A stretch of 64,000 bases of DNA from an uncultured bacterium (GCA_938074205.1 CALJES010000002.1:124001-188000), one strand, 5' to 3'; positions 35,864 through 64,000 are shown, counted from the stretch's first letter. Notes: a model not told the origin generated them from the sequence alone. A program made the numbers and translations.

Positions 35864-38446
35864 ATGCGACTCACTGCAACGTTAGTGTTGTTAATGGTTT
35901 TATTGTGTGTTCAGATATACGCTGCTGCACTGGTGTCGGATCCCACGGCGTATTGTCCTCCGGCTCCTCCTGGAATGGTCAAAGTGGATGGCTCGCTTGA
36001 TGAGATAGTATGGCAAATCCCTCCTGTAGCCTCCGGATTCGTAACAACTGATGGCAAGGAGCCGAAAGAACAAACGGAGGCCTGGGTTGCGTTTGGTAGG
36101 GATGGAGTCTACTTTGCTTTTATGTGTTATCAGCAGAAGATGGGTGAGGTCGGCGATGCTGCCAAGGGCTCACCTTGGCGAGAAGACTCTGTAGAACTCT
36201 TTCTTGATGTCAATGGCGACCGGTCAACATATCACCACTTCATACTCGGCGCATCCGGAGCCAAGTTCCACGAGTTAGTGAAATCGGCGGCTCCGCGGGT
36301 GAAAAACGAGCCGGTCGAGTGGGAAGGTTTGGCCAAAGTCGCCGATGGGAGATGGATGGCTGAGATTTATGTGCCATATTCAACCTTAGGAGTGACTTTG
36401 AAAGAGGGTTCCGTTCTTCGTGCGAACCTGTGCCGAAACAATATAGCTGTAGGAGAAAGCACTTGTTGGGCAAAAGTGAACGGCGGTTTTCATCAGCCGC
36501 TGCGCTTTGGAAACATTGTGATGGGCATACCGATCCACCGCGCCGCCTTTACTGTTGAGGTGGACGAACCCCTCCTCACGGGTACTGTGCGCTTCCGAGT
36601 GGTCGCGCAGAACCCGGCGCCATTTGATATCAATGTTACCGGAATAATATTTCCAGGTAGCAGGAAGCTGAAATCCCAGCAGCAGTTTATAGTCCCTGCG
36701 GGTAAGTCAGCTTCTACTGAGCTTAATATTGATATACCTACACCGGGTGACATTAACATTCGTCTTCTTGCAGCTAATGCACGTTCGGGAGCCGCAGTAT
36801 CTGAAATGAGTTTTAGCGCAAAGGTGGAACCTGCCCCACCGGCTGCTGTTGGCGGCATCATCACAAGTCAGAACTGGGGTACGCTGTGGTACTCGATTTC
36901 AACTTTCAAAGTAATGCGCGACACCACGCCGCCGGCGAACAAAGTAGCTGCTGTCCGAATATCTGCTGCGAGAAATGAATACGAGGCATTTCAACTAGTA
37001 CTGCGGCCGACTAAGACATTCTCGGGCGTCAAAGTTACACCGCGCACTCTAATCGGACCTAAGAAATCGACTATCCCCGCATACAACATCGTTGTCAGGA
37101 ATGTCGAATATCTGAATGTTACGGAACCCACAAGTGCAGATGTTCGGCCCGGTTGGTACCCAGATCCTCTGCCCGAGTTCAGTCCTTTCACGGCTTCTGC
37201 TGGTAGGAATACTCCCGTTTGGGTAGCGGTATACGTGCCGCCAAAGACAGCTCCAGGAGATTATAAAGGCACTATTGATATCGCAGCCCCAGGACTTAAG
37301 CTCTCAGTGCCTGTAATAGTACACGTATGGGATTTTGAGCTACCTACAGTGAGTAGGCTTCGCACCGCCTATGGCTGCGGGATGAGTGGTCCATCAACAT
37401 ACCACGGCGCTACTACGCTAGAACAAAAGCGCAAACTGCTCGACCATTACAACCGCGAGTTCTGGCGACACAGAGTTGCGCCATATGAACCTTATAAGTT
37501 TTATGAGATCAAAGGCACTGTCGAGAATGGACGTATAAAACTCGATTTTTCGGAGTTTGATATTGCAATACAAAAGTATTTCGCGCTGTTCAACGGGTTC
37601 AAACTACCAGGCTTTGCGATGGGCGAGACCGGGGGGATGGACTTTGGCGACAACTACGATCAGTTGAAGATAGAGTACATGCGCATGGTTGCGGAACATC
37701 TACTCAACAAAGGACAGCTCTCAAAGGGCTACAACTATATTTTTGATGAACCTACGCCGGAAGACTATCCGAATGTCAAACACGCGGCAGAACTTTGCAG
37801 AATGGCCGACCAGCGTATAAAAGTTCTTTTGACCGAGCAAGTAGAGGACGAGTTAATCGGCTACGTTGATATTTGGGTTCCTTTGCTAAGTTCGTACGAC
37901 GAGCAGAAGTCAAAAGCTCGTCAGCAGGCGGGAGAGGAAGTTTGGTGGTACGTATGCTGTGGTCCCCATCATCCGTATCCGAACAATTTTATTGACTACC
38001 CGGCTATCGATCATCGCATTCTGCACTGGATAACCTGGCGTTATGGCGTCAACGGGATTCTGTATTGGAACACAACATACTGGCGCGACAATCCCTGGGA
38101 GACACCTATGAGTTATACCCCTGACGGAAAGGGCAAATGGGGCAACGGCGATGGCCGCCTGCTGTACCCACCGGTGAAAAAGCCTTCAGCGAAATTCGTT
38201 GACAGAGGTCCGATTCCTTCGATCCGTTGGGAAATGATCCGCGACGGCATCGAAGATTATGATTACTTTGCAATCCTCAAGGCAAAGCTGGCAAAGGCCA
38301 AGCCCGGACCGGCGGTTGAGAAAGCCAAAGCGGCGCTGCAGCTTGTCAATGAACTTGCAAAATCGCGCACTGAATATACCAGAGATCCAGCAAAGCTTGA
38401 GTCCGCAAGGGAAGCAGTAGCTCGGGCAATTGAGAGCTTGAGGTAG
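35864..38446 (+). CDS. Secreted glycoside-hydrolase-like protein with CBM9-like and DUF4091 domains
   Basis: Predicted exported 860-residue protein. After a signal peptide (LVLLMVLLCVQIYAAA) there is a CBM9-like carbohydrate-binding domain (about 30-225, VDGSLDEIVWQIPPVASGF ... DSVELFLDVNGD). A middle beta-rich domain follows, then a C-terminal TIM-barrel-like DUF4091 region (about 500-830) with FDEPTPEDYPNVKHAAELCR and IRWEMIRDGIEDYDYFAILK. Family members are presumed glycosidases acting on plant or microbial polysaccharide; the catalytic residues are not assigned. GGGAGG precedes the ATG by about 10 nt. Monocistronic. Confidence 0.8.
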   Translation: MRLTATLVLLMVLLCVQIYAAALVSDPTAYCPPAPPGMVKVDGSLDEIVWQIPPVASGFVTTDGKEPKEQTEAWVAFGRDGVYFAFMCYQQKMGEVGDAAKGSPWREDSVELFLDVNGDRSTYHHFILGASGAKFHELVKSAAPRVKNEPVEWEGLAKVADGRWMAEIYVPYSTLGVTLKEGSVLRANLCRNNIAVGESTCWAKVNGGFHQPLRFGNIVMGIPIHRAAFTVEVDEPLLTGTVRFRVVAQNPAPFDINVTGIIFPGSRKLKSQQQFIVPAGKSASTELNIDIPTPGDINIRLLAANARSGAAVSEMSFSAKVEPAPPAAVGGIITSQNWGTLWYSISTFKVMRDTTPPANKVAAVRISAARNEYEAFQLVLRPTKTFSGVKVTPRTLIGPKKSTIPAYNIVVRNVEYLNVTEPTSADVRPGWYPDPLPEFSPFTASAGRNTPVWVAVYVPPKTAPGDYKGTIDIAAPGLKLSVPVIVHVWDFELPTVSRLRTAYGCGMSGPSTYHGATTLEQKRKLLDHYNREFWRHRVAPYEPYKFYEIKGTVENGRIKLDFSEFDIAIQKYFALFNGFKLPGFAMGETGGMDFGDNYDQLKIEYMRMVAEHLLNKGQLSKGYNYIFDEPTPEDYPNVKHAAELCRMADQRIKVLLTEQVEDELIGYVDIWVPLLSSYDEQKSKARQQAGEEVWWYVCCGPHHPYPNNFIDYPAIDHRILHWITWRYGVNGILYWNTTYWRDNPWETPMSYTPDGKGKWGNGDGRLLYPPVKKPSAKFVDRGPIPSIRWEMIRDGIEDYDYFAILKAKLAKAKPGPAVEKAKAALQLVNELAKSRTEYTRDPAKLESAREAVARAIESLR

Positions 38447-42686: not shown

Positions 42687-44567
42687 ATGCTCGTGTTGCT
42701 GTGCGTACATCTACTCGGCGTAGTACATCTCGGCGCAAGCCAGTCTTCGCATCCTTCGGCCTATATTTTTCCTCTCCCTAACAAGATCACTTTTGAAGAG
42801 GGAACGACTACCTGCGAAGGCCCGGTCAAAGAGAAAATTGGCTCGGCGCGAAGTGATATCGGAGATGAAGGCTACATCTTACGATGCCATAGGGATTATT
42901 GCGAGATAACCGCCCGTACTCAGCAAGGTCTTTTCTACGGTAGACAAACGTTGGATCAACTTAGGAATGCTGGCACCATCCAGTGTTGCACGATCGAAGA
43001 TGCGCCGAAGATGAAAATGCGTGGGGTCATGTTGGACCTTGCTCGACTCAAGGAGAAGCACGAGTATTACTACCACATCATAGACCAACTTGCTAAGTGG
43101 AAGATAAACACCGTGTTTCTGCACTTGACGGATCACAACGGGTGCGCGTTGGAGTTCAAGAGTTTCCCGCAGCTGGCGACTAAATATGCTTTTACTCAGG
43201 AGGAAATGAAAAAACTGATTCGGTACGCTGCAGATCGCTACGTGGAGTTGATCCCGGAAATAGAGTCATGGGGTCACGCGCGGTGGATCACAAGCGTGCC
43301 GGAGTTTTCCGATTTGGCGGAGTCTAGGGAGAAAACCGGCTCGCTTTGTACGTCTAACCCACGGACGTGGGAAGTCCTGGGCAAAATCTACCAGGAGATA
43401 GCCCAACTGTTTCCGAGCGATTACATTCACGCCGGATGTGACGAGGCGTCATTTGGTCTTTGCGACCAGTGCAAGGCAAAGGTCGATAAGGAAGGACCGG
43501 ACAGTCTCGTCGGCGAGCACCTGAAAAAAGTGTGTGAGCTTATCAAGTCCGTTGGTAAGAGGCCTATGATATGGGGCGACGTGCTTTTGAGTAGGCGCGG
43601 TTCCGCAGATCAGGTGCCGAAGGACGCTGTAATTTGCCACTGGGACTACAAGGCGACTTTGTCTGCGGAGCCGGTACAGTTCTTGAAAAGCAAGAGTTTT
43701 GATGTTGTCGGGTGTCCCGCAATTGTTTGGGGCAGTCGTGAGATTCTGCCTATGAGTGATACATGGGACAATGTGGCCAATTTTGCTCAGATAGTGCTCG
43801 ATAATAACTGCTTGGGAATGGAGACCACGGTGTGGGTTCCCCAGCGCTACATTGCCGACACTTTGTATCCGGCGCTGGCACACGCCTGCGAAATGTCTTG
43901 GAGTGGGAATGCTAGGTCCAGAACTGATTTTATTACGGCGTTTGCCCGCCAATTCTTCGGTCTCGATCCTGCACCGGCAGTTGCACAAGCGCTGCTCGAT
44001 GTGCACGAACTTTCCATCAAGGGTTACGCCAAGATCGCCGACATAGCCGATTACGCTCGTCAGGTCTTTCTGAAAGGCGAGGGCGACTCGCCACCTATGC
44101 CGGAAGTCGCAGAAAAAGCGAAAAATATTGTCGAAACGCTTCGAAACGCGCGACGGGATGTCAGGCGCCACCAAGATGAGTATGATTCACTTATACTGGC
44201 TGCTGACATTCGTGCCTACGTCGAGGAGAGAGCGGCTGCGGTCTACAAGCTGGTATCGTTGCTTAGAAAGGCTCGTGCTGAGAGCGAACGGGGTAACATG
44301 GAAGCAGCCGCGAGCGTCCTCAAGGAAGCTGCGCAACTTATAGAAGGGTTAGTACCGACCGATAGGTATTTGGCGTCTCAAGTTGCAGATGCGTGGAACC
44401 GATGGCGTTACGCAGACGATCCGAAGAAGAAGGAGGGCGAAGACAATCTTACTGCCGGGTTTGCTCGAAGCGAAGATTTCTTGCGCAAAACTATAGAAAG
44501 GCTCAAAACATCGACACAGCGCTTTGAAGAAGGATCTATCCCGGATCTTGACGATATCTTGAACTGA
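42687..44567 (+). CDS. Glycoside hydrolase family 20, beta-N-acetylhexosaminidase-like
   Basis: Predicted exported 626-residue enzyme releasing terminal N-acetylhexosamine. A short signal peptide (LVLLCVHLLGVVHLGA) precedes a GH20b-like N-domain (about 25-100), then the barrel: RGVMLDLARLKEKHEYYYHI, HLTDHNGCALEFKSFP and the catalytic pair in YIHAGCDEASFG (D252-E253). A helical C-terminal part (about 470-600) is charged and coiled-coil-like. AAGGAG lies 6 nt before the ATG and comEA ends 12 nt earlier. It could act on chitin or peptidoglycan fragments. Convergent with the next gene, 8 nt away. Confidence 0.85.
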   Translation: MLVLLCVHLLGVVHLGASQSSHPSAYIFPLPNKITFEEGTTTCEGPVKEKIGSARSDIGDEGYILRCHRDYCEITARTQQGLFYGRQTLDQLRNAGTIQCCTIEDAPKMKMRGVMLDLARLKEKHEYYYHIIDQLAKWKINTVFLHLTDHNGCALEFKSFPQLATKYAFTQEEMKKLIRYAADRYVELIPEIESWGHARWITSVPEFSDLAESREKTGSLCTSNPRTWEVLGKIYQEIAQLFPSDYIHAGCDEASFGLCDQCKAKVDKEGPDSLVGEHLKKVCELIKSVGKRPMIWGDVLLSRRGSADQVPKDAVICHWDYKATLSAEPVQFLKSKSFDVVGCPAIVWGSREILPMSDTWDNVANFAQIVLDNNCLGMETTVWVPQRYIADTLYPALAHACEMSWSGNARSRTDFITAFARQFFGLDPAPAVAQALLDVHELSIKGYAKIADIADYARQVFLKGEGDSPPMPEVAEKAKNIVETLRNARRDVRRHQDEYDSLILAADIRAYVEERAAAVYKLVSLLRKARAESERGNMEAAASVLKEAAQLIEGLVPTDRYLASQVADAWNRWRYADDPKKKEGEDNLTAGFARSEDFLRKTIERLKTSTQRFEEGSIPDLDDILN

Positions 44568-56095: not shown

Positions 56096-56129
56096 CGCTT
56101 GGATGATATTGAAGGGGCGGAGGACAAAA

Positions 56130-56612
56130 ATGAAAATTACAACTACAAGGTTCGGAGTAATAGAAATCGACGATTCTTCTGTAATAAGAATGCTCCGAGG
56201 TCCAATCGGGTTTGAGGATTACAAAAACTATTGCTTGATCCAGCATAGGCCGGACACTAGTTTCCGTTGGCTTCAGTCAGTAGATGAACCAAGCCTTGCG
56301 TTCGTTGTTGTGGACCCTTCGCAGCTTTTTGAGGATTATAACATCGAGCTCTCTGATGCCGACGCAGAGGCTCTACATCTCAAACGCGCTGAGGATGCGT
56401 TGGTGCTGACTATTGTAACCATCGGAGAAGGCGGTAAGGAAATAACAGTTAATTTGGCTGCTCCCATAGTCATAAATGCTAATGAACTGATTGCGATGCA
56501 GGTGGTACTACAGGACGGCAGATACCCGGTGCGACAACCGTTGACTACGGTTCGCGAAGAAAAATCTGATCAAGGAAGTGACCGAACTGCTCTTGCAACT
56601 GAAGCCGCATAA
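56130..56612 (+). CDS. fliW: Flagellar assembly factor FliW (CsrA antagonist)
   Basis: Predicted 160-residue protein that binds CsrA to relieve repression of flagellin translation, and is itself sequestered by free flagellin in known systems. TTRFGVIEIDDSSVIRMLRG, PIGFEDYKNYCLI, FRWLQSVDEPSLAFVVVDP and VNLAAPIVINANELIAMQVV are family hallmarks. ATG 56130 has GGAGG just upstream; a frame extension to 56103 is unlikely. csrA follows after 30 nt. Confidence 0.95.
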   Translation: MKITTTRFGVIEIDDSSVIRMLRGPIGFEDYKNYCLIQHRPDTSFRWLQSVDEPSLAFVVVDPSQLFEDYNIELSDADAEALHLKRAEDALVLTIVTIGEGGKEITVNLAAPIVINANELIAMQVVLQDGRYPVRQPLTTVREEKSDQGSDRTALATEAA

Positions 56613-56642
56613 ACCGAGAGTGTGCGAAAGGAATCGCTCAAA

Positions 56643-56876
56643 ATGCTCGTGCTTGCTAGGAAGGTCGGACAATCAATCGTAATAGGTGGCAACATTGAGA
56701 TACTAGTGATCGAGGTTCGTGGCGATCAAGTGCGTCTTGGCATAGAAGCTCCAAAATCAATACCTGTGCATCGGAAGGAACTGCTGGAGCAAATACGAGA
56801 CGAAAACATAAAGGCGGCTTCAGACACAAGCGTGGACGCCGTAACCAGAATGCTGGAAGGCCGCCAGTCGGACTAG
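56643..56876 (+). CDS. csrA: Carbon storage / translational regulator CsrA
   Basis: Predicted 77-residue RNA-binding dimer. The start MLVLARKVGQSIVIGGNIEI and RLGIEAPKSIPVHRKEL are canonical, including the RNA-binding GIEAP and VHR positions. ATG 56643 gives the universal MLVL start; AAGGAA lies about 10 nt upstream. In the FliW-CsrA circuit it blocks the flagellin Shine-Dalgarno; both flagellin leaders downstream have matching GGA motifs. Confidence 0.96.
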   Translation: MLVLARKVGQSIVIGGNIEILVIEVRGDQVRLGIEAPKSIPVHRKELLEQIRDENIKAASDTSVDAVTRMLEGRQSD

Positions 56877-57065
56877 ACTGTACGCCCTTGACTTGACGGT
56901 CTTTGTTTTATATCCTCAACCGACACACCGATGCTGTTAATGGTTGCAAGCGTTATTTTCCACCTTTATTTTTCTCACCCCTATACCTCTACTTAGTCGA
57001 GTAGCACTCCGATAATCACGATGGCCCCGATAAAACTACTCTTTTTGTACGCAAGGTGAAAACAG

Positions 57066-60000
57066 ATGAGTAAGCGTAAGAAAAGTGTGCGGAAGGCTAA
57101 CCGTCGAACATTCAACCGGACTCTTGATACCTCGGTTTCTCGAGAACTTACCATTGGCCACAAGGAGGCTGTTGCACATGAAACCCTGGTGCGAAATCAC
57201 TCGAAGATTAAGGCTTTGGCATGCGAAAAGCCTTTGAAACTTCACTTGGGCTGCGGATACAAGATCCTCGATGGATACGTCAATATCGATCTGTACAGTC
57301 CTGCTGCAGACCTGAAAATGGATATTGTGGATCTGAGCTGCTTCAAGGATTCCTCAGTTGACGAGATATATCTGAATGCCGTATTCGAACATCTCTATGT
57401 CTTTGAACAGATGAAGGCTTTGGCAGAATGGTGGCGAGTGCTCAAACCGGGCGGGAAGCTGGTTATGCGCTCGATTCCGGATTTTGATGAGATAGCGCGA
57501 GCGTACATAAGCGCGGCTCCCGGCAATGACGGACTGAGGTTCGACATCGAAGAGGTATCGCGTTACACGCACGGTGCTTATGGACGTGATAACAGGCTTG
57601 GGCAAATACACAAGGATGTGTTTACTAAACCCAAGATGCGAAAACTTCTTGAGCGTGTGGGTTTCAAGGTTATATCGATGGAAAATGTGTGCTACGCAGA
57701 CGAGCCGAATCCTGTCAACCTCAACATTGTCGCTGTCAAGCCAGCTGAAAATCTTTCTGATTCAGGTGACTCGCAAGAGCAGCAAGACGCCTTAGTATCT
57801 AATAGTGCGCTGATTAGCGCGGACAATAACGTACAGTTGAGTGTTGCGGCGGTGTACTGCACACATGACGACGATGTCTGGTTATTGGAGTCCATTGAGT
57901 CGATATACGAAGTCTGTAATGCCATCTATGTTTTGGTAGGTGAAAAACCTTGGTTTGGTGAGCCAGGTGACTTCGAATCGGTGATTGGAAAGTTGGAAAG
58001 TTTTCCGGATGAGTTAAACAAGATTCGTGTGGTCAGAGGAAATTGGAAATGCGAGGCTGACCAGAGAAATGCAGGTTTGGACATTCTCGAACAAGAACAG
58101 TTCACCTATTGTTTGGTGATCGACACAGACGAGATCTACGACCCTGTCGATCTCACATGGTTGCTAAGAATAGCGCAGCGGCATCCTAACGTGGACTGCT
58201 GGCACGTAGAGATGGACACTTATTGGAAGTCCTGGATGTATCGCATACATCCAAGAGAGCAGCTCAAACCGGCAGTGTTGCTTAAGGTTGGTAGAGTTAG
58301 ATTTACACAAAACAGGAACGTTGGTCAATGCACACACGGGCTGGTTGGGCCTGAAATTGCCGTGTGTCATCATTTGAGTTACGCTCGCTCAGACGCGCAG
58401 CTGGTTCGAAAGTTGGCAACGTTTAGTCACGCTGGCGAGTTAGTATTCGGCTGGTATGAAAACGTCTGGAAAAAATGGGACACAAACCGGTTTCTAAAAA
58501 ATCTGCATCCGACTCATCCGTCTGCATATATGTGCGCTACGGTGCAGCCTTATTGGGCGCTGCCACCTGTGTTGCGCCGGCGTTACGACCTGGAAGCGCA
58601 GAATGGCGGACTTGAGTTCGATGACTATTGCAGACAAATCCGCAACAACCATCTGGCTTCCATAATTGTTCTTACACTTAATCAATTGGGTTATACCAAG
58701 CGATGCCTTGAGAGCATCGAGAAGCACACTTCGGTGCCGTACGAGGTGATTGTAGTCGACAATGGTTCCAGCGACGGGACAATTCAGTTTTTACAACAAT
58801 GGGTGTCGAAAGCCGAAAACAGACGAGTCGTATATAACGCTGATAATCTGGGTTTTGCGAAAGGTAGCAACATCGGCATAGCTCGTGCTAATGGACAATA
58901 CATTGTGTTGGTCAACAACGACGTTGTCGTCACACCCAAATGGTTGGAGAGGTTGTTAGCTTGTGCCGCACGTGACGCTTCGATTGGGATTGTGGGTGCT
59001 TTAACAAATGCTGTCTCGGGTCCTCAGTGTGTAGAGCAACCAGTCTACGACACAGAATCACTGGTAGGGCTGGACGACTTTGCTAAGGATTGGGCTCAGA
59101 GACACTTAGGGCAGAGGACTCCTGCTGTGCGGGTTGTTGGATTCTGCATGCTGGTGAGAAAGTCGGTTATTGACAACATTGGCGGGTTTGACGAACGCTT
59201 TGGTTTAGGGAATTTCGAAGATGACGATTTTTGCCTTCGGTCTGCTCTAGCCGGTTTCAAGACGATGATAGCTCGTGATTGCTTCGTCCACCACTACGGT
59301 AGTCGCACCTTTTTGGGGGAACGTATCGATTACCGATGTCTGATGTCTCGTAATTGGGAGCTGTTTAAGGAAAAATGGGGTTTACCGCGAGATTTGCCGC
59401 TAGGCGCGGGGTATGATGCTAGCACGTTGCTGAAGCAGCAGTTTGATCATGCGGTACACTATGTTCCTCTACCACATTTTTCCAAGGGCGAACCCTTCGA
59501 CAGCCAGAGTTGCGAGGAAAAGGATGAAGTTAGCACCGCTTCTGACGTCAAGCCTTTACTTTCTTTGTGTATGATCGTTCGCAATGAGGAGCAGTTCATC
59601 GAGTTCTGCCTCGCTAGTGTAAGAGATGTTGTCGACGAGATAATCGTCGTCGATACTGGCTCGACAGACCGCACCGCCCAAATATCCAGGCAGTTTGGTG
59701 CTAAGGTGTATCACTACGTATGGAGCGATGATTATTCAGCTGCAAGAAACGAAGCCGCTAAGCGTGCGCGGGGCGAATGGATACTGTTCATGGACGCAGA
59801 CGAAGTGCTTGATGCAGAATCCAAGCATATTCTCAGACAAGCAGTCGAACATCCAATTGCAGATGCCTATGAACTACTCTTTTACAACTATTGTAGTACG
59901 GATAGTAGTTTCCCCGATATTGTCCATCGTGTTTGCAGGTTGTATCGAAACCGGCCAGAGTATCGATTTCGCGGACGTGTTCACGAGAACGTCGCTACTT

Positions 60001-61268
60001 CAATACAGGAAGCTGGCGGTTTGATTGCGGAATTGGATGTGGTGGTTCACCACTACGGATACAGACCCGACGTGAAAAATCAGCGGAACAAACAAGAAAG
60101 ATACCTTGCCCTTTTGCACGCTGAACTTGAAGAAAAGCCTGACGACATCTACGTGTTGTTTCATTTGAGTGCAGCTTATTGTGCGGAGGGAGAGTTTGAA
60201 AAAGCCATACCTTACCTTGAGAAACTTGTGGACTTAGTTCCTCCCAGTAACACCTTTGCTCCGCAGTCGTTTTCGAGATTAATGAATGCCTATTGGGCTG
60301 TTGGCCGCAGCGAAGACGCCCTAAAGATTGCTTCCCGAGCAGAGGAATTACACGTTGTTCATCCAGAGATTAGCTTCTCCAAAGGCAATGCTTTATTGGC
60401 ACTCGAGCGTTATTCAGAAGCTTTGGAAGCTTTTCGGGAAGCTATTGAACTCGGTGCTCAAGGCAAGTGGCTTGGCGACCCTGGAACATACAGTCACAAA
60501 GCACGATTCGGCATAGCCCGGGCACTTGCTGGACTGGGTAGATATGATGAGGCACTGAAACAGCTTAGGCAGCTTCTCGATGAGCACTCAAACTATCCCA
60601 GCGCGCATGAACTGGCTGCGTTGTTGTGTTCGCAGCTAGGGGATATTCCAGGGGCAGAAGTTCACTGGCGGGAGTTTTTAAGACTTGTCCCAACCAGTAC
60701 TGAAACGTGTCTTAATCTGGCTGAGATTTGTGAGACCCAAGGTCGCTATCAGGAAGCGATTGGACATTACTTCAGAGCTATCGAAAATTGTGGGGAATCG
60801 TCCGAACTTTACCAAAAGATAGCCACCTGTTACGAAATGATGGGCGACCTGGCAAACGCCGAGAAACATTATATCAAGGCGATAAGCGTCGATCCACATG
60901 CTGCTGAGGCTTACAACGACCTCGGTCGGTTGCATGCGTCGAGAGGCGATATCCAAAGCGCGCTGGACTGCTTTGCTAAAGCAGTCGAGGTCAAACCGGA
61001 GTACGCAAACGCTTATTTCAACGCCGCGGATTTACTATATAAACTAGGCAAATACTTAGAGGCTGCTGAGATATACGAAAGCGGTTTAGCGAGAGATCCC
61101 TCAAGAGCAGAGGCCTTTCTAGCATTAGGTAATTGCTGCTATAAGTTAGGAGCTTTAAATGCGGCTGTTCTTGCCTATAAGCAAGCTTTATGCATAAATC
61201 AGGATTACGAGGAAGCCAAAAACAACCTAGCTCTTGCAGAAGAAGCCCTCAAGGAAACTGCCGCGTGA
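57066..61268 (+). CDS. Giant methyltransferase-glycosyltransferase-TPR protein, probable flagellin modification
   Basis: Predicted 1400-residue cytosolic protein with at least five modules. (1) SAM methyltransferase, about 55-230, with LHLGCGYKILDGYVNID. (2) A GT-A-like domain, about 257-470, with IDTDEIYD. (3) A GT2 glycosyltransferase, about 531-750, with SIIVLTLNQLGYTKRCLESI, IVVDNGSSDGT and VLVNNDVVV. (4) A second GT2, about 831-1010, with LSLCMIVRNEEQFIEFCLAS, VVDTGSTDRT and LFMDADEVLD. (5) TPR repeats, about 1012-1395. The N-terminus is basic. AAGGTG precedes the ATG. Its place between csrA and the flagellins suggests it glycosylates flagellin and modifies the glycan; the target is inference. 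Confidence 0.85.
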   Translation: MSKRKKSVRKANRRTFNRTLDTSVSRELTIGHKEAVAHETLVRNHSKIKALACEKPLKLHLGCGYKILDGYVNIDLYSPAADLKMDIVDLSCFKDSSVDEIYLNAVFEHLYVFEQMKALAEWWRVLKPGGKLVMRSIPDFDEIARAYISAAPGNDGLRFDIEEVSRYTHGAYGRDNRLGQIHKDVFTKPKMRKLLERVGFKVISMENVCYADEPNPVNLNIVAVKPAENLSDSGDSQEQQDALVSNSALISADNNVQLSVAAVYCTHDDDVWLLESIESIYEVCNAIYVLVGEKPWFGEPGDFESVIGKLESFPDELNKIRVVRGNWKCEADQRNAGLDILEQEQFTYCLVIDTDEIYDPVDLTWLLRIAQRHPNVDCWHVEMDTYWKSWMYRIHPREQLKPAVLLKVGRVRFTQNRNVGQCTHGLVGPEIAVCHHLSYARSDAQLVRKLATFSHAGELVFGWYENVWKKWDTNRFLKNLHPTHPSAYMCATVQPYWALPPVLRRRYDLEAQNGGLEFDDYCRQIRNNHLASIIVLTLNQLGYTKRCLESIEKHTSVPYEVIVVDNGSSDGTIQFLQQWVSKAENRRVVYNADNLGFAKGSNIGIARANGQYIVLVNNDVVVTPKWLERLLACAARDASIGIVGALTNAVSGPQCVEQPVYDTESLVGLDDFAKDWAQRHLGQRTPAVRVVGFCMLVRKSVIDNIGGFDERFGLGNFEDDDFCLRSALAGFKTMIARDCFVHHYGSRTFLGERIDYRCLMSRNWELFKEKWGLPRDLPLGAGYDASTLLKQQFDHAVHYVPLPHFSKGEPFDSQSCEEKDEVSTASDVKPLLSLCMIVRNEEQFIEFCLASVRDVVDEIIVVDTGSTDRTAQISRQFGAKVYHYVWSDDYSAARNEAAKRARGEWILFMDADEVLDAESKHILRQAVEHPIADAYELLFYNYCSTDSSFPDIVHRVCRLYRNRPEYRFRGRVHENVATSIQEAGGLIAELDVVVHHYGYRPDVKNQRNKQERYLALLHAELEEKPDDIYVLFHLSAAYCAEGEFEKAIPYLEKLVDLVPPSNTFAPQSFSRLMNAYWAVGRSEDALKIASRAEELHVVHPEISFSKGNALLALERYSEALEAFREAIELGAQGKWLGDPGTYSHKARFGIARALAGLGRYDEALKQLRQLLDEHSNYPSAHELAALLCSQLGDIPGAEVHWREFLRLVPTSTETCLNLAEICETQGRYQEAIGHYFRAIENCGESSELYQKIATCYEMMGDLANAEKHYIKAISVDPHAAEAYNDLGRLHASRGDIQSALDCFAKAVEVKPEYANAYFNAADLLYKLGKYLEAAEIYESGLARDPSRAEAFLALGNCCYKLGALNAAVLAYKQALCINQDYEEAKNNLALAEEALKETAA

Positions 61269-61287: not shown

Positions 61288-61315
61288 TAATGTTTTGTTG
61301 GCTGTCGGTCGATAA
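61288..61315 (+). promoter_or_regulatory. Sigma-28-like promoter of the first flagellin gene
   Basis: TAATGTTT (61288-61295), a 12-nt spacer and GTCGATAA (61308-61315). Same spacing and core as at flgF and the second flagellin. The predicted leader is about 85 nt. Confidence 0.75.
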
Positions 61316-61404: not shown

Positions 61405-62817
61405 GTGAGTCTTAAGATCAATCTTAATACTGCTGCGTTGACCGCGCACCGAATGCTCAGCAGTACGGATCAAAGCCTTAGTAAGACTATTGAGAGGCTT
61501 GCTTCTGGATTTCGTATCAATAGTGCCTCGGACGACCCGGCAGGTTTGGTCATATCCGAAAAGCTGCGGGCGCAGGTTACTGGTTTGGAGCAGGCAATTA
61601 GAAATGCCAGCGACGCCGTCAACATGGTGAGGACTGCTGAAGCTGCGCTGAATGAAGTGAGCCGACTCCTCCGATCCATGCGCGACTTGGCGGTACACGC
61701 GGCAAACACTGGTGCCAACGACCAAGCCGCAGTTCAGGCAGACCAAGCTCAAATTGCAAACGCTATTGCGTCGCTCAACAAGATAGCCGCGGAAACAATG
61801 TTCGGGCAAAAGAAACTTCTCGATGGGTCTGCCGGTATAAAAGCGAATGTTATAGGAAACAAGGTCATATCGGCTGATTTTTCCTATCTCTCAGGTGTTA
61901 GTGATGGTGCTCAGGTAACGATCGAGGTTACGACGGCTGCGGCGAAGGCTGTTCTATATTCAAAGGCTTTCAGTGGCGAGAATGCCACCATAGGGAAAGC
62001 CGGTACGTTCTACATAAATGGTATAGCAATATCTTATTCCACCGACGATACAGTGGCCGTTCTTAGGTCTGCGATCAATGCTGTTTCTAATGAAACTGGT
62101 GTCGTTGCTATGCTGACTACCGCTGGAGTGATCGACTTCGTATCTAGGCAATATGGGCACGAGGCAAGTATAGCGATTACGAACGGCGGCGACATACTGG
62201 ACGGCGTAGTTTCCGCGGCTGCAATTGGCCAGGACGCGGCTGCGCGAGTCCGGATAAACGGCATAGACATCTCGGATGCTTTGTGGACATCAGGTAATGG
62301 TTTAATCCTGAAGGATTCTCTGGGTAACCAGATCGTCCTGACGGAAGTAGGCGGTACGGCAACTGGCGACCTTGGTGCGCAGTTTCAACTTGATGTTGGT
62401 ACGTTAGTGTTCCAGGTCGGAGCATATGCAGGCCAGACAAGGGAGCTCAACATACCTTCGGTTTATGCTCACGATCTCGGTACCGACGCCATTCCTGGTG
62501 AGAACGTCTCTACTATCGATTTGCTGACCGCGGAAGGGGCTCAAAATGCCATACTCATCCTGGATGCTGCTATACGGCAGATCTCTTCGGTGAGAGCTTC
62601 TTTGGGAGCAATGCAAAAAAACGTGTTCGAATCGAGCATAAATTCACTGACCATTGCCAAAGAGAATATTGCAGCTTCGGAATCCACTATAAGGGATGCC
62701 GACATGGCTTCAGAAGTGATGGAGCTGACCAGAAATCAGATTCTTGAGCAAGCCGGCGTAGCAATGCTTGCTCAGGCAAACATGACTCCGCAGACGCTAC
62801 TGAAACTCTTGCAATAG
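61405..62817 (+). CDS. fliC: Flagellin (first copy)
   Basis: Predicted 470-residue filament subunit. The conserved D0/D1 N-terminus (SLKINLNTAALTAHRMLSST, SLSKTIERLASGFRINSASD, DDPAGLVISEKLRAQVTGLE) and the C-terminus (TIRDADMASEVMELTRNQIL, EQAGVAMLAQANMTPQTLLK) flank a variable D2/D3 region (about 150-380), a typical surface-exposed part. The start is GTG 61405 behind AGGAGG. It lies 136 nt after the giant modification gene and has its own sigma-28-like promoter. Confidence 0.97.
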   Translation: MSLKINLNTAALTAHRMLSSTDQSLSKTIERLASGFRINSASDDPAGLVISEKLRAQVTGLEQAIRNASDAVNMVRTAEAALNEVSRLLRSMRDLAVHAANTGANDQAAVQADQAQIANAIASLNKIAAETMFGQKKLLDGSAGIKANVIGNKVISADFSYLSGVSDGAQVTIEVTTAAAKAVLYSKAFSGENATIGKAGTFYINGIAISYSTDDTVAVLRSAINAVSNETGVVAMLTTAGVIDFVSRQYGHEASIAITNGGDILDGVVSAAAIGQDAAARVRINGIDISDALWTSGNGLILKDSLGNQIVLTEVGGTATGDLGAQFQLDVGTLVFQVGAYAGQTRELNIPSVYAHDLGTDAIPGENVSTIDLLTAEGAQNAILILDAAIRQISSVRASLGAMQKNVFESSINSLTIAKENIAASESTIRDADMASEVMELTRNQILEQAGVAMLAQANMTPQTLLKLLQ

Positions 62818-62854
62818 AGCTTATACTAACATCAGGCAAATCGCCCAGAACTGG

Positions 62855-62892
62855 AAAGCCGGCGCAGTTTTTAAGTGCTGCACCGGCTTTTT
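62855..62892 (+). terminator. Rho-independent terminator after the first flagellin gene
   Basis: AAAGCCGG (62855-62862) pairs with CCGGCTTT (62883-62890) and GCAG with CTGC further in, each side with one unpaired base. The stem is followed by more Ts. It lies 38 nt after the flagellin stop. Beyond it the gap to 63200 holds the promoter and CsrA-type region of the second flagellin and no other ORF. Confidence 0.8.
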
Positions 62893-63045
62893 GTCGTTGT
62901 GATTGGTCTTTCAACCTCTCTTTCTAGCATAAAAAGTTTGTGTAATTCTGCATTATTTTCAGGATGGTATGTGGAAAAACTGCAAGTGGAGGTGCATGCA
63001 AAGCCGACGCGGATCTACGCTCAGACCGGTTCTGGCACGCAGTGC

Positions 63046-63073
63046 TCAAGTATTGACGTCTGCACGTCGATAC
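63046..63073 (+). promoter_or_regulatory. Sigma-28-like promoter of the second flagellin gene
   Basis: TCAAGTAT (63046-63053), a 12-nt spacer and GTCGATAC (63066-63073). The architecture is identical to the flgF and first flagellin promoters; the -35 octamer matches TAAAGTTT at six positions. Confidence 0.6.
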
Positions 63074-63161
63074 GTAATCTGGAACCGAGAGTGGCTCGCG
63101 GTGAGGACGGTTCTGGGTTGAGAAATTGATCCGCCAATGGCTTTGAAAATGACTCAAAACA

Positions 63162-63193
63162 GGCCACGGACTGGCCGGAAAACCTCAAGGAGG
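63162..63193 (+). promoter_or_regulatory. Candidate CsrA-binding region over the second flagellin Shine-Dalgarno
   Basis: GGCC (63162-63165) and GGCC (63173-63176) can form a small hairpin presenting GGA in its 7-nt loop. A second GGA follows at 63177-63179. A third lies within CTCAAGGAGGAAT, overlapping the Shine-Dalgarno AGGAGG (63188-63193), 7 nt before the ATG. Loop-presented GGA is the preferred CsrA target. Confidence 0.45.
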
Positions 63194-63200
63194 AATCGAA

Positions 63201-64000
63201 ATGAGTCTGAGGATCAATCTCAATTCCGCTAGCCTGACAGCACATAGAACACTGTCGGCAACGGACGCCGCGTTGGGCAAGAGCATTGAGCGCTTGTCCT
63301 CGGGCTTCCGGATCAACTCAGCAGGTGACGATCCTGCGGGGTTGGTCATCTCCGAAAAATTGCGTGCGCAGATAAGCGGCTTGGGACAGGCAATTCGCAA
63401 CGCTGGTGACGCGGTTAACATGGTAAAGACAGCAGAAGGAGCTCTGAACGAAGTTCACAGACTGCTCCGCTCGATGAGAGATCTAGCCGTTCATGCAGCA
63501 AACACTGGTGCAACTGACGCTGCTTCGGTTGCGGCCGACCAAGCCCAGATTGCCAACGCCATCCAGTCTCTGAACAAGATAGCTGCGGAGACGATGTTCG
63601 GTCAGAAGACGTTGCTGGACGGGTCCGCAGGAATCAAAGCAACGGTAATCGGCGACAAGGTTGTCTCAGCCGACTTTTCCTATGCAACCGGTTTGACAAA
63701 CGGTGCGCAGATATCGATCAATGTCACGTCGGCAGCAACTAAGGGAGTTGTGTATTCGAAAAACTTCGGTAACGAGAACAGCACAGTTGGCGCAGCTGGA
63801 ACGTTCTACATAAATGGCGTGGCCATTTCTTACTCTACTAACGACACCGTGACGCAGCTTAGAGCCGCAATCAACGCCGTTAGCAATCAGACCGGCGTGG
63901 TCGCCGCTCAAACAACAGCCGGCATAATTGACTTCAGGACGGTCAGATACGGTCACTCAGCCACTGTGGCAATATCCAGTGCCGGCGACATTCTTAACGG
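63201..64000 (+). CDS. Flagellin (second copy, truncated by window end)
   Basis: A second flagellin starts at ATG 63201 and is still open at 64000 (266 codons visible). The N-terminus SLRINLNSASLTAHRTLSAT and SIERLSSGFRINSAGDDPAG closely follows the first copy. The similarity continues into the variable region (for example GTFYINGVAISYSTNDTVTQ against GTFYINGIAISYSTDDTVAV), so the two are recent paralogues. The C-terminus is outside the window. Both flagellins may be needed for one filament. Confidence 0.95.
   Translation, partial: MSLRINLNSASLTAHRTLSATDAALGKSIERLSSGFRINSAGDDPAGLVISEKLRAQISGLGQAIRNAGDAVNMVKTAEGALNEVHRLLRSMRDLAVHAANTGATDAASVAADQAQIANAIQSLNKIAAETMFGQKTLLDGSAGIKATVIGDKVVSADFSYATGLTNGAQISINVTSAATKGVVYSKNFGNENSTVGAAGTFYINGVAISYSTNDTVTQLRAAINAVSNQTGVVAAQTTAGIIDFRTVRYGHSATVAISSAGDILN

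Follow-up and report, generated by a model that had tools for sequence, protein, structure and literature searches.

A putative single-chain flagellin glycan synthase encoded between csrA and two flagellin genes in an uncultured genus of Armatimonadota

A 64,000-nucleotide stretch of the genome of an uncultured bacterium (GCA_938074205.1 CALJES010000002.1:124001-188000; hereafter the window, with positions counted from its first letter) contains a giant gene within a flagellar locus whose product joins an S-adenosylmethionine (SAM) methyltransferase domain (MT), three glycosyltransferase (GT) domains (GTa, GTb and GTc) and a long array of tetratricopeptide repeats (TPR) in one chain. Our analysis suggests that this protein is probably a cytoplasmic single-chain flagellin glycan synthase that adds a methylated glycan. 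A preliminary description had proposed that the gene modifies flagellin; this part of the proposal is well supported, though indirectly, by synteny, the slot into which the gene was inserted, the use of that slot in other phyla, co-occurrence with flagellin, the kinship of GTc with GmaR and SunS, and a sigma28-like -10 element. From these patterns we infer the substrate, the identities of the sugars, the order of the steps, the target of the MT and the roles of the individual domains.

Domain layout and predicted structure

The window genome (G000; Armatimonadota, 3.02 Mb, ~98% complete) encodes the protein and its domains as follows, with lengths in amino acids (aa):

57066..61268, + strand: MT-GTa-GTb-GTc-TPR protein, 1400 aa (single open frame; same layout in two other genomes of the genus)
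57213..57770, + strand: SAM methyltransferase domain (MT), residues 50-235 (PF08241 2e-9; LHLGCG/NIDL motifs conserved)
57831..58640, + strand: GTa, GT-A domain, residues 256-525, DTDE at 353-356 (GT-A fold; invariant DxDE; PF00535 sub-threshold)
58641..59483, + strand: GTb, GT2 domain, residues 526-806, motifs VDNGSSDG, NND and FEDD (PF00535 1.6e-26)
59541..60155, + strand: GTc, GmaR/SunS-like GT2 domain, residues 826-1030, motifs DTGSTD, DADE and HE (PF00535 3.8e-24)
60156..61265, + strand: TPR superhelix, residues 1031-1400 (TPR Pfam models; predicted structure)

The preliminary description had named each of these parts, and all of them hold: the 1400-codon frame is real, the SAM methyltransferase motif is borne out by the PF08241 match and both motifs, the DxDE-bearing GT-A-like domain proves to be of GT2 type as well, the two further GT2 domains match PF00535, and the TPR array reaches the C-terminus. 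By sequence, the MT has the signs of a class I SAM methyltransferase, namely PF08241 (matched over the C-terminal half of the profile), a glycine-rich motif I and an acidic motif II (LHLGCG at residues 59-64 and NIDL at 73-76). GTa matched PF00535 at only 0.0015 in the Pfam domain scan, below the cut-off, and its D-x-D-E is unchanged across 12 homologues; an acidic metal/nucleotide motif is present in all three GT domains (DxDE in GTa, NND in GTb, DADE in GTc).

All three genomes compared from the genus (G000, G001 and G002) have the layout, with two copies interrupted by contig ends: the G002 gene is divided exactly at contig ends, and the G001 contig stops inside the TPR. The architecture is common to these congeners at 60-76% identity, and single domains are 51-82% identical to those of the window protein, the MT ranking highest in each comparison (78% and 82%). 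The domains showed 0.10-0.34 replacement changes per site, silent sites were at or near saturation, and all checked active-site motifs were kept, some with conservative internal changes (e.g., DTDE to DADE). Since replacement changes are so much rarer than silent ones and the motifs are retained, all domains appear to be under purifying selection, and a chance layout is excluded by the same scarcity of replacements together with the shared architecture.

The structural model of GTc and TPR together (residues 826-1400) had a mean predicted local distance difference test (pLDDT) score of 93, with helices of TPR type up to the C-terminus. Compared with solved structures, it was closest to SunS (Z 27.0, 2.4 A, 277 residues), with ThuS at Z 24.8 and the TPR superhelix of O-linked N-acetylglucosamine (O-GlcNAc) transferase (1w3b) at Z 24.2. 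By sequence, GTc matched the GT domain of GmaR (22ao) at 1.6e-37, and the two parts have the GmaR/SunS-type arrangement, in which TPR-like helices come straight after a GT2 domain. SunS and ThuS are S-glycosyltransferases that act on bacteriocin peptides; they resemble the window protein in GT2 fold, C-terminal helical repeats and a protein acceptor, but each has a single GT and no MT. The GTa model (mostly pLDDT 80-96) has a GT-A fold, matching ThuS (Z 16.2), SunS (Z 15.2) and many GT2 enzymes (Z 13-15). The MT part of the model stayed below pLDDT 50, unfolded because its alignment comprised two sequences only, and the MT assignment consequently rests on PF08241 and the LHLGCG and NIDL motifs.

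The csrA-flagellin slot

On its 5' side the giant gene follows genes for FlgI, FlgM, FlgN, FlgK, FlgL, FliW and CsrA, and on its 3' side it precedes two flagellin genes, so that the flanks given in the preliminary description (FliW-CsrA and two flagellins) were both recovered:

56103..56612, + strand: fliW (homology across loci)
56622..56876, + strand: csrA (homology across loci)
57008..57016, + strand: TCCGATAAT, sigma28-like -10 element 5' of the giant gene (identical block upstream in all three congeners)
61288..61315, + strand: TAATGTTT-N12-GTCGATAA, candidate sigma28-like promoter of flagellin 1 (conserved in congener G002)
61405..62817, + strand: flagellin 1, 470 aa, proposed acceptor (PF00669 at G000:C2:185417-185830)
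63201..64000, + strand: flagellin 2, continuing beyond the window end, proposed acceptor (PF00669 at G000:C2:187213-187626)

The giant gene adjoins csrA in all three congeners and flagellin in both whose contigs extend that far. In three sister-genus genomes of the family (loci L162 in G008, L163 in G011 and L164 in G005), flagellin is the next gene after csrA, at a distance of ~370-460 bp; because the slot is empty there, we conclude that the giant gene was inserted in the window genus or before that genus radiated. The same slot is occupied in BMS3Bbin03 (locus L099; FliW-CsrA-1635 aa-657 aa-flagellin), and giant GTs lie in the same neighbourhood in Eremiobacterota (L092), Fibrobacterota (L136), Thermoanaerobacter (L102), Caldanaerobacter (L131) and a Clostridia metagenome-assembled genome (L139).

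At 1400 aa the window protein is not of outlying size, as relatives reach 2682 and 3036 aa. The former is an open reading frame (ORF) at L045:4222-12270 (- strand) with four GT2 domains, radical SAM/SPASM, a methyltransferase and a GT1, adjoining a 752-aa GTc-TPR ORF; the latter is a Calditrichaeota ORF at L106:1807-10917 (+ strand) in which an MT, several GT2 domains and TPR segments are intermixed. A 1762-aa ORF at L041:4336-9624 (+ strand), near flagellar genes, combines a CDP-glycerol glycerophosphotransferase-like domain, WbsX and GT2.

Among the congeners' regions upstream of the giant gene, TCCGATAAT is the clearest identical block, and GTCGATA stands at the equivalent position upstream of the flagellins. 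The sigma28 -10 consensus is GCCGATAA, which both blocks resemble. Given the weak -35 element of the giant gene, and the lack of any exact site in a search of the window with the sigma28 consensus, we treat these elements as supporting evidence only. Scans for generic sigma70 promoters and for terminators yielded no more matches than shuffled sequence did. The ~380 bp 5' of flagellin 2 (62818-63200) are conserved in the three congeners, including GTCGATA and a GGAAAAA block, and could form a long leader or regulatory RNA; Rfam returned no known RNA near the locus and none matching 62818-63200. Farther away, the window also encodes GH123 and GH20 glycoside hydrolases (35864-38446 and 42687-44567), families known for hexosaminidase activity.

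Related enzymes, origin and distribution

GT2-TPR proteins are known or predicted flagellin transferases (PMC9638930, PMC13317340). GmaR of Listeria monocytogenes transfers GlcNAc to flagellin (PMC9638930), and the window protein resembles it in having a GT2 domain followed by TPRs and, as proposed here, flagellin as acceptor; GmaR, however, carries a single GT and a C-terminal antirepressor domain and lacks an MT, whereas the window protein has three GTs, an MT and a C-terminus of TPR only. In type B Clostridioides difficile, GT1 adds GlcNAc, and the proposed role of GT2 (PF00535 plus PF08241) is to attach rhamnoses and methylate them (PMC5207246). Likened by description, this pair (CDR20291_0241/0242) shares with the window protein a stepwise flagellin glycan and a GT2 joined to a PF08241 MT, but the comparable functions are spread over separate genes, with no single chain of three GTs and a long TPR described. 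A comparable layout, in the FliW-CsrA-flagellin locus of Thermoanaerobacter thermocopriae (L102), is a 1097-aa GT2-MT-GT2-TPR protein (GTb, MT, GTc, TPR), which differs in domain order, in lacking GTa, in its position after flagellin and in having only distant relatives of GTb and GTc. Caulobacter FlmG binds flagellin by its TPR (PMC7591256) and likewise joins a flagellin-binding TPR domain to a GT, but its GT-B-fold enzyme transfers pseudaminic acid and its TPR is N-terminal. Enterobacterial flagellin islands encode a GT41 with an MT domain in one protein (PMC4875605), though this enzyme is GT41 (OGT/SPINDLY-like) rather than GT2, and no triple GT is described.

We found no description of the MT-GTa-GTb-GTc-TPR layout in the open-access literature. 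The earlier statement that no similar layout had been described holds for the five-part combination and needs softening for its parts, since the T. thermocopriae protein and the GT2-MT fusion of C. difficile (CDR20291_0242) exist. What is new is the five-part combination, so far restricted to one genus, and its chimeric origin; the kind of enzyme was already known.

Evidence on origin came from a genome scan with the GTa-GTc core as query and from GTb and GTc trees built on short searches. In the GTb tree the window genus groups with G015 and G026/G027, and for both GTb and GTc, flagellar-cluster genes of G026/G027 are among the nearest relatives beyond the genus; those of G026 lie ~3 kb from genes for the flagellar rod, with flagellin 11-17 kb away. 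The GTa type was found elsewhere only in ORFs of other Armatimonadota with the order GTa-GTb-GTc (~1030-1290 aa), beside RHS-repeat genes (L044, L051, L079, L083 and L086) and, at L051, L083 and L094, a NifU_N-like ORF; these ORFs and their RHS neighbours are possibly a cassette for glycosylating RHS proteins. One genome, G074, carries three of these ORFs but lacks flagellin. Their GTb domains form a separate clade, and joining them with the window genus was rejected (approximately unbiased test, p-AU 0.0019); the window genus likewise falls outside their clade in the GTc tree. We therefore discarded the candidate assignment of the giant gene to this family, which the GTb test contradicts and the GTc tree does not support. 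Because GTb and GTc group with flagellar-cluster transferases and GTa otherwise occurs in the RHS-linked family, the simplest reading is that the gene is chimeric, with MT and GTa apparently joined to a flagellin-type GTb-GTc-TPR module.

Across the 101 genomes of the relatives set, a GTc-type match occurred in 37, and 35 of these also had flagellin, the two exceptions being 61% and 69% complete; flagellin was present in 25 of the 64 genomes lacking such a match (Fisher p 1e-8, uncorrected for phylogeny). Families f1, f2, f4 and f5 each contain genomes with both the GTc-type gene and flagellin and genomes with neither, and none with the GT only. Outside the genus, a GTc-type gene directly adjoins flagellin in G078, G088 and G095. 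A consistent location of homologues away from flagella, named beforehand as an observation that would tell against a flagellin role, was not seen for this architecture or for the nearest GTb and GTc relatives, and was seen in part for looser ones (the RHS-linked GTa-GTb-GTc ORFs and many GTc-TPR genes).

Proposed function and alternative readings

We propose that the C-terminal TPR superhelix would hold newly made flagellin while GTc attaches the first sugar to its Ser/Thr residues, GTc being the likely initiating, protein-acceptor transferase because it adjoins the TPR and is of GmaR/SunS type. GTb and GTa would then extend the glycan by one or more sugars, the N-terminal MT would cap it by O-methylating the outer sugar, and flagellin so modified would be exported through the flagellar type III system. 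The gene itself would have arisen in the window genus, when MT and GTa were joined to the GTb-GTc-TPR module and placed between csrA and the flagellins. As the window genome has a dTDP-sugar isomerase family gene, a deoxythymidine diphosphate (dTDP)-linked deoxysugar is a possible donor. PF01973 (Maf/MptE-like) matched none of the four catalytic domains and gave one match elsewhere in the genome, below the family cut-off, which we count in favour of this proposal. A stricter version, in which one polypeptide binds flagellin, builds a glycan of at least three sugars in the order GTc, GTb, GTa and caps it with methyl, an RHS-type transferase and an MT having been grafted on in one genus, is a tentative possibility that we regard as somewhat doubtful.

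Several observations weigh against a flagellin glycan synthase. The ties of the GTa family to RHS genes mean that GTa may have brought another specificity with it, the MT part of the model is unfolded, and the association with flagellin is uncorrected for phylogeny. In addition, GTc-TPR genes are distant from flagellin in many flagellated genomes (e.g., G008, G068, G100 and G047), and flagellated genomes of the same family lack any match (G004, G005, G009, G011 and G014).

One alternative is that the gene acts on another surface protein or glycan, such as RHS-repeat proteins or a cell-surface polysaccharide, and that its proximity to flagellin is incidental. The idea draws on the fact that the only other holders found of GTa-type domains sit beside RHS-repeat genes and the NifU_N-like ORF, and on G074 with its three such ORFs and lack of flagellin; we consider it improbable, as none of the three genomes of the genus gave an RHS repeat match at E 1e-8, the window GTb and GTc fall outside the RHS-linked clades, and synteny with flagellin extends across the genus. 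A larger share of doubt concerns how much of the chain is active. GTc and TPR may add one sugar to flagellin, with GTa, GTb or MT serving as a scaffold or acting on another substrate (e.g., a protein side chain). Domain sets do vary among related multi-GT proteins, so that single domains are dispensable elsewhere, and searches of PDB and NCBIfam yielded no identification of the methylated substrate. Partial activity of this kind nevertheless seems unlikely to us, though by no means negligible, given that the active-site motifs of all four catalytic domains are kept and that silent changes are far more frequent than replacements in every one of them. Finally, the GmaR-type GTc and the FliW-CsrA regulatory neighbourhood would suit a dual protein that both glycosylates flagellin and regulates flagellar genes via its TPR, as an anti-repressor or secretion sensor. 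This we judge very improbable: the C-terminus is modelled as TPR helices to its end, with no sign of the separate antirepressor domain of GmaR, and a position next to csrA is usual for flagellar genes in this family.

If the giant gene does encode a flagellin glycan synthase, a pathway that is elsewhere split over several genes would be carried by one chain, providing a simple system for asking how the order and length of protein-linked glycans are determined. In several phyla the csrA-flagellin slot appears to accept giant mosaic glycosyltransferases, so that further multi-step glycan synthases might be sought there, and the phylogeny offers a concrete case of a transferase domain common to RHS-associated and flagellar settings.

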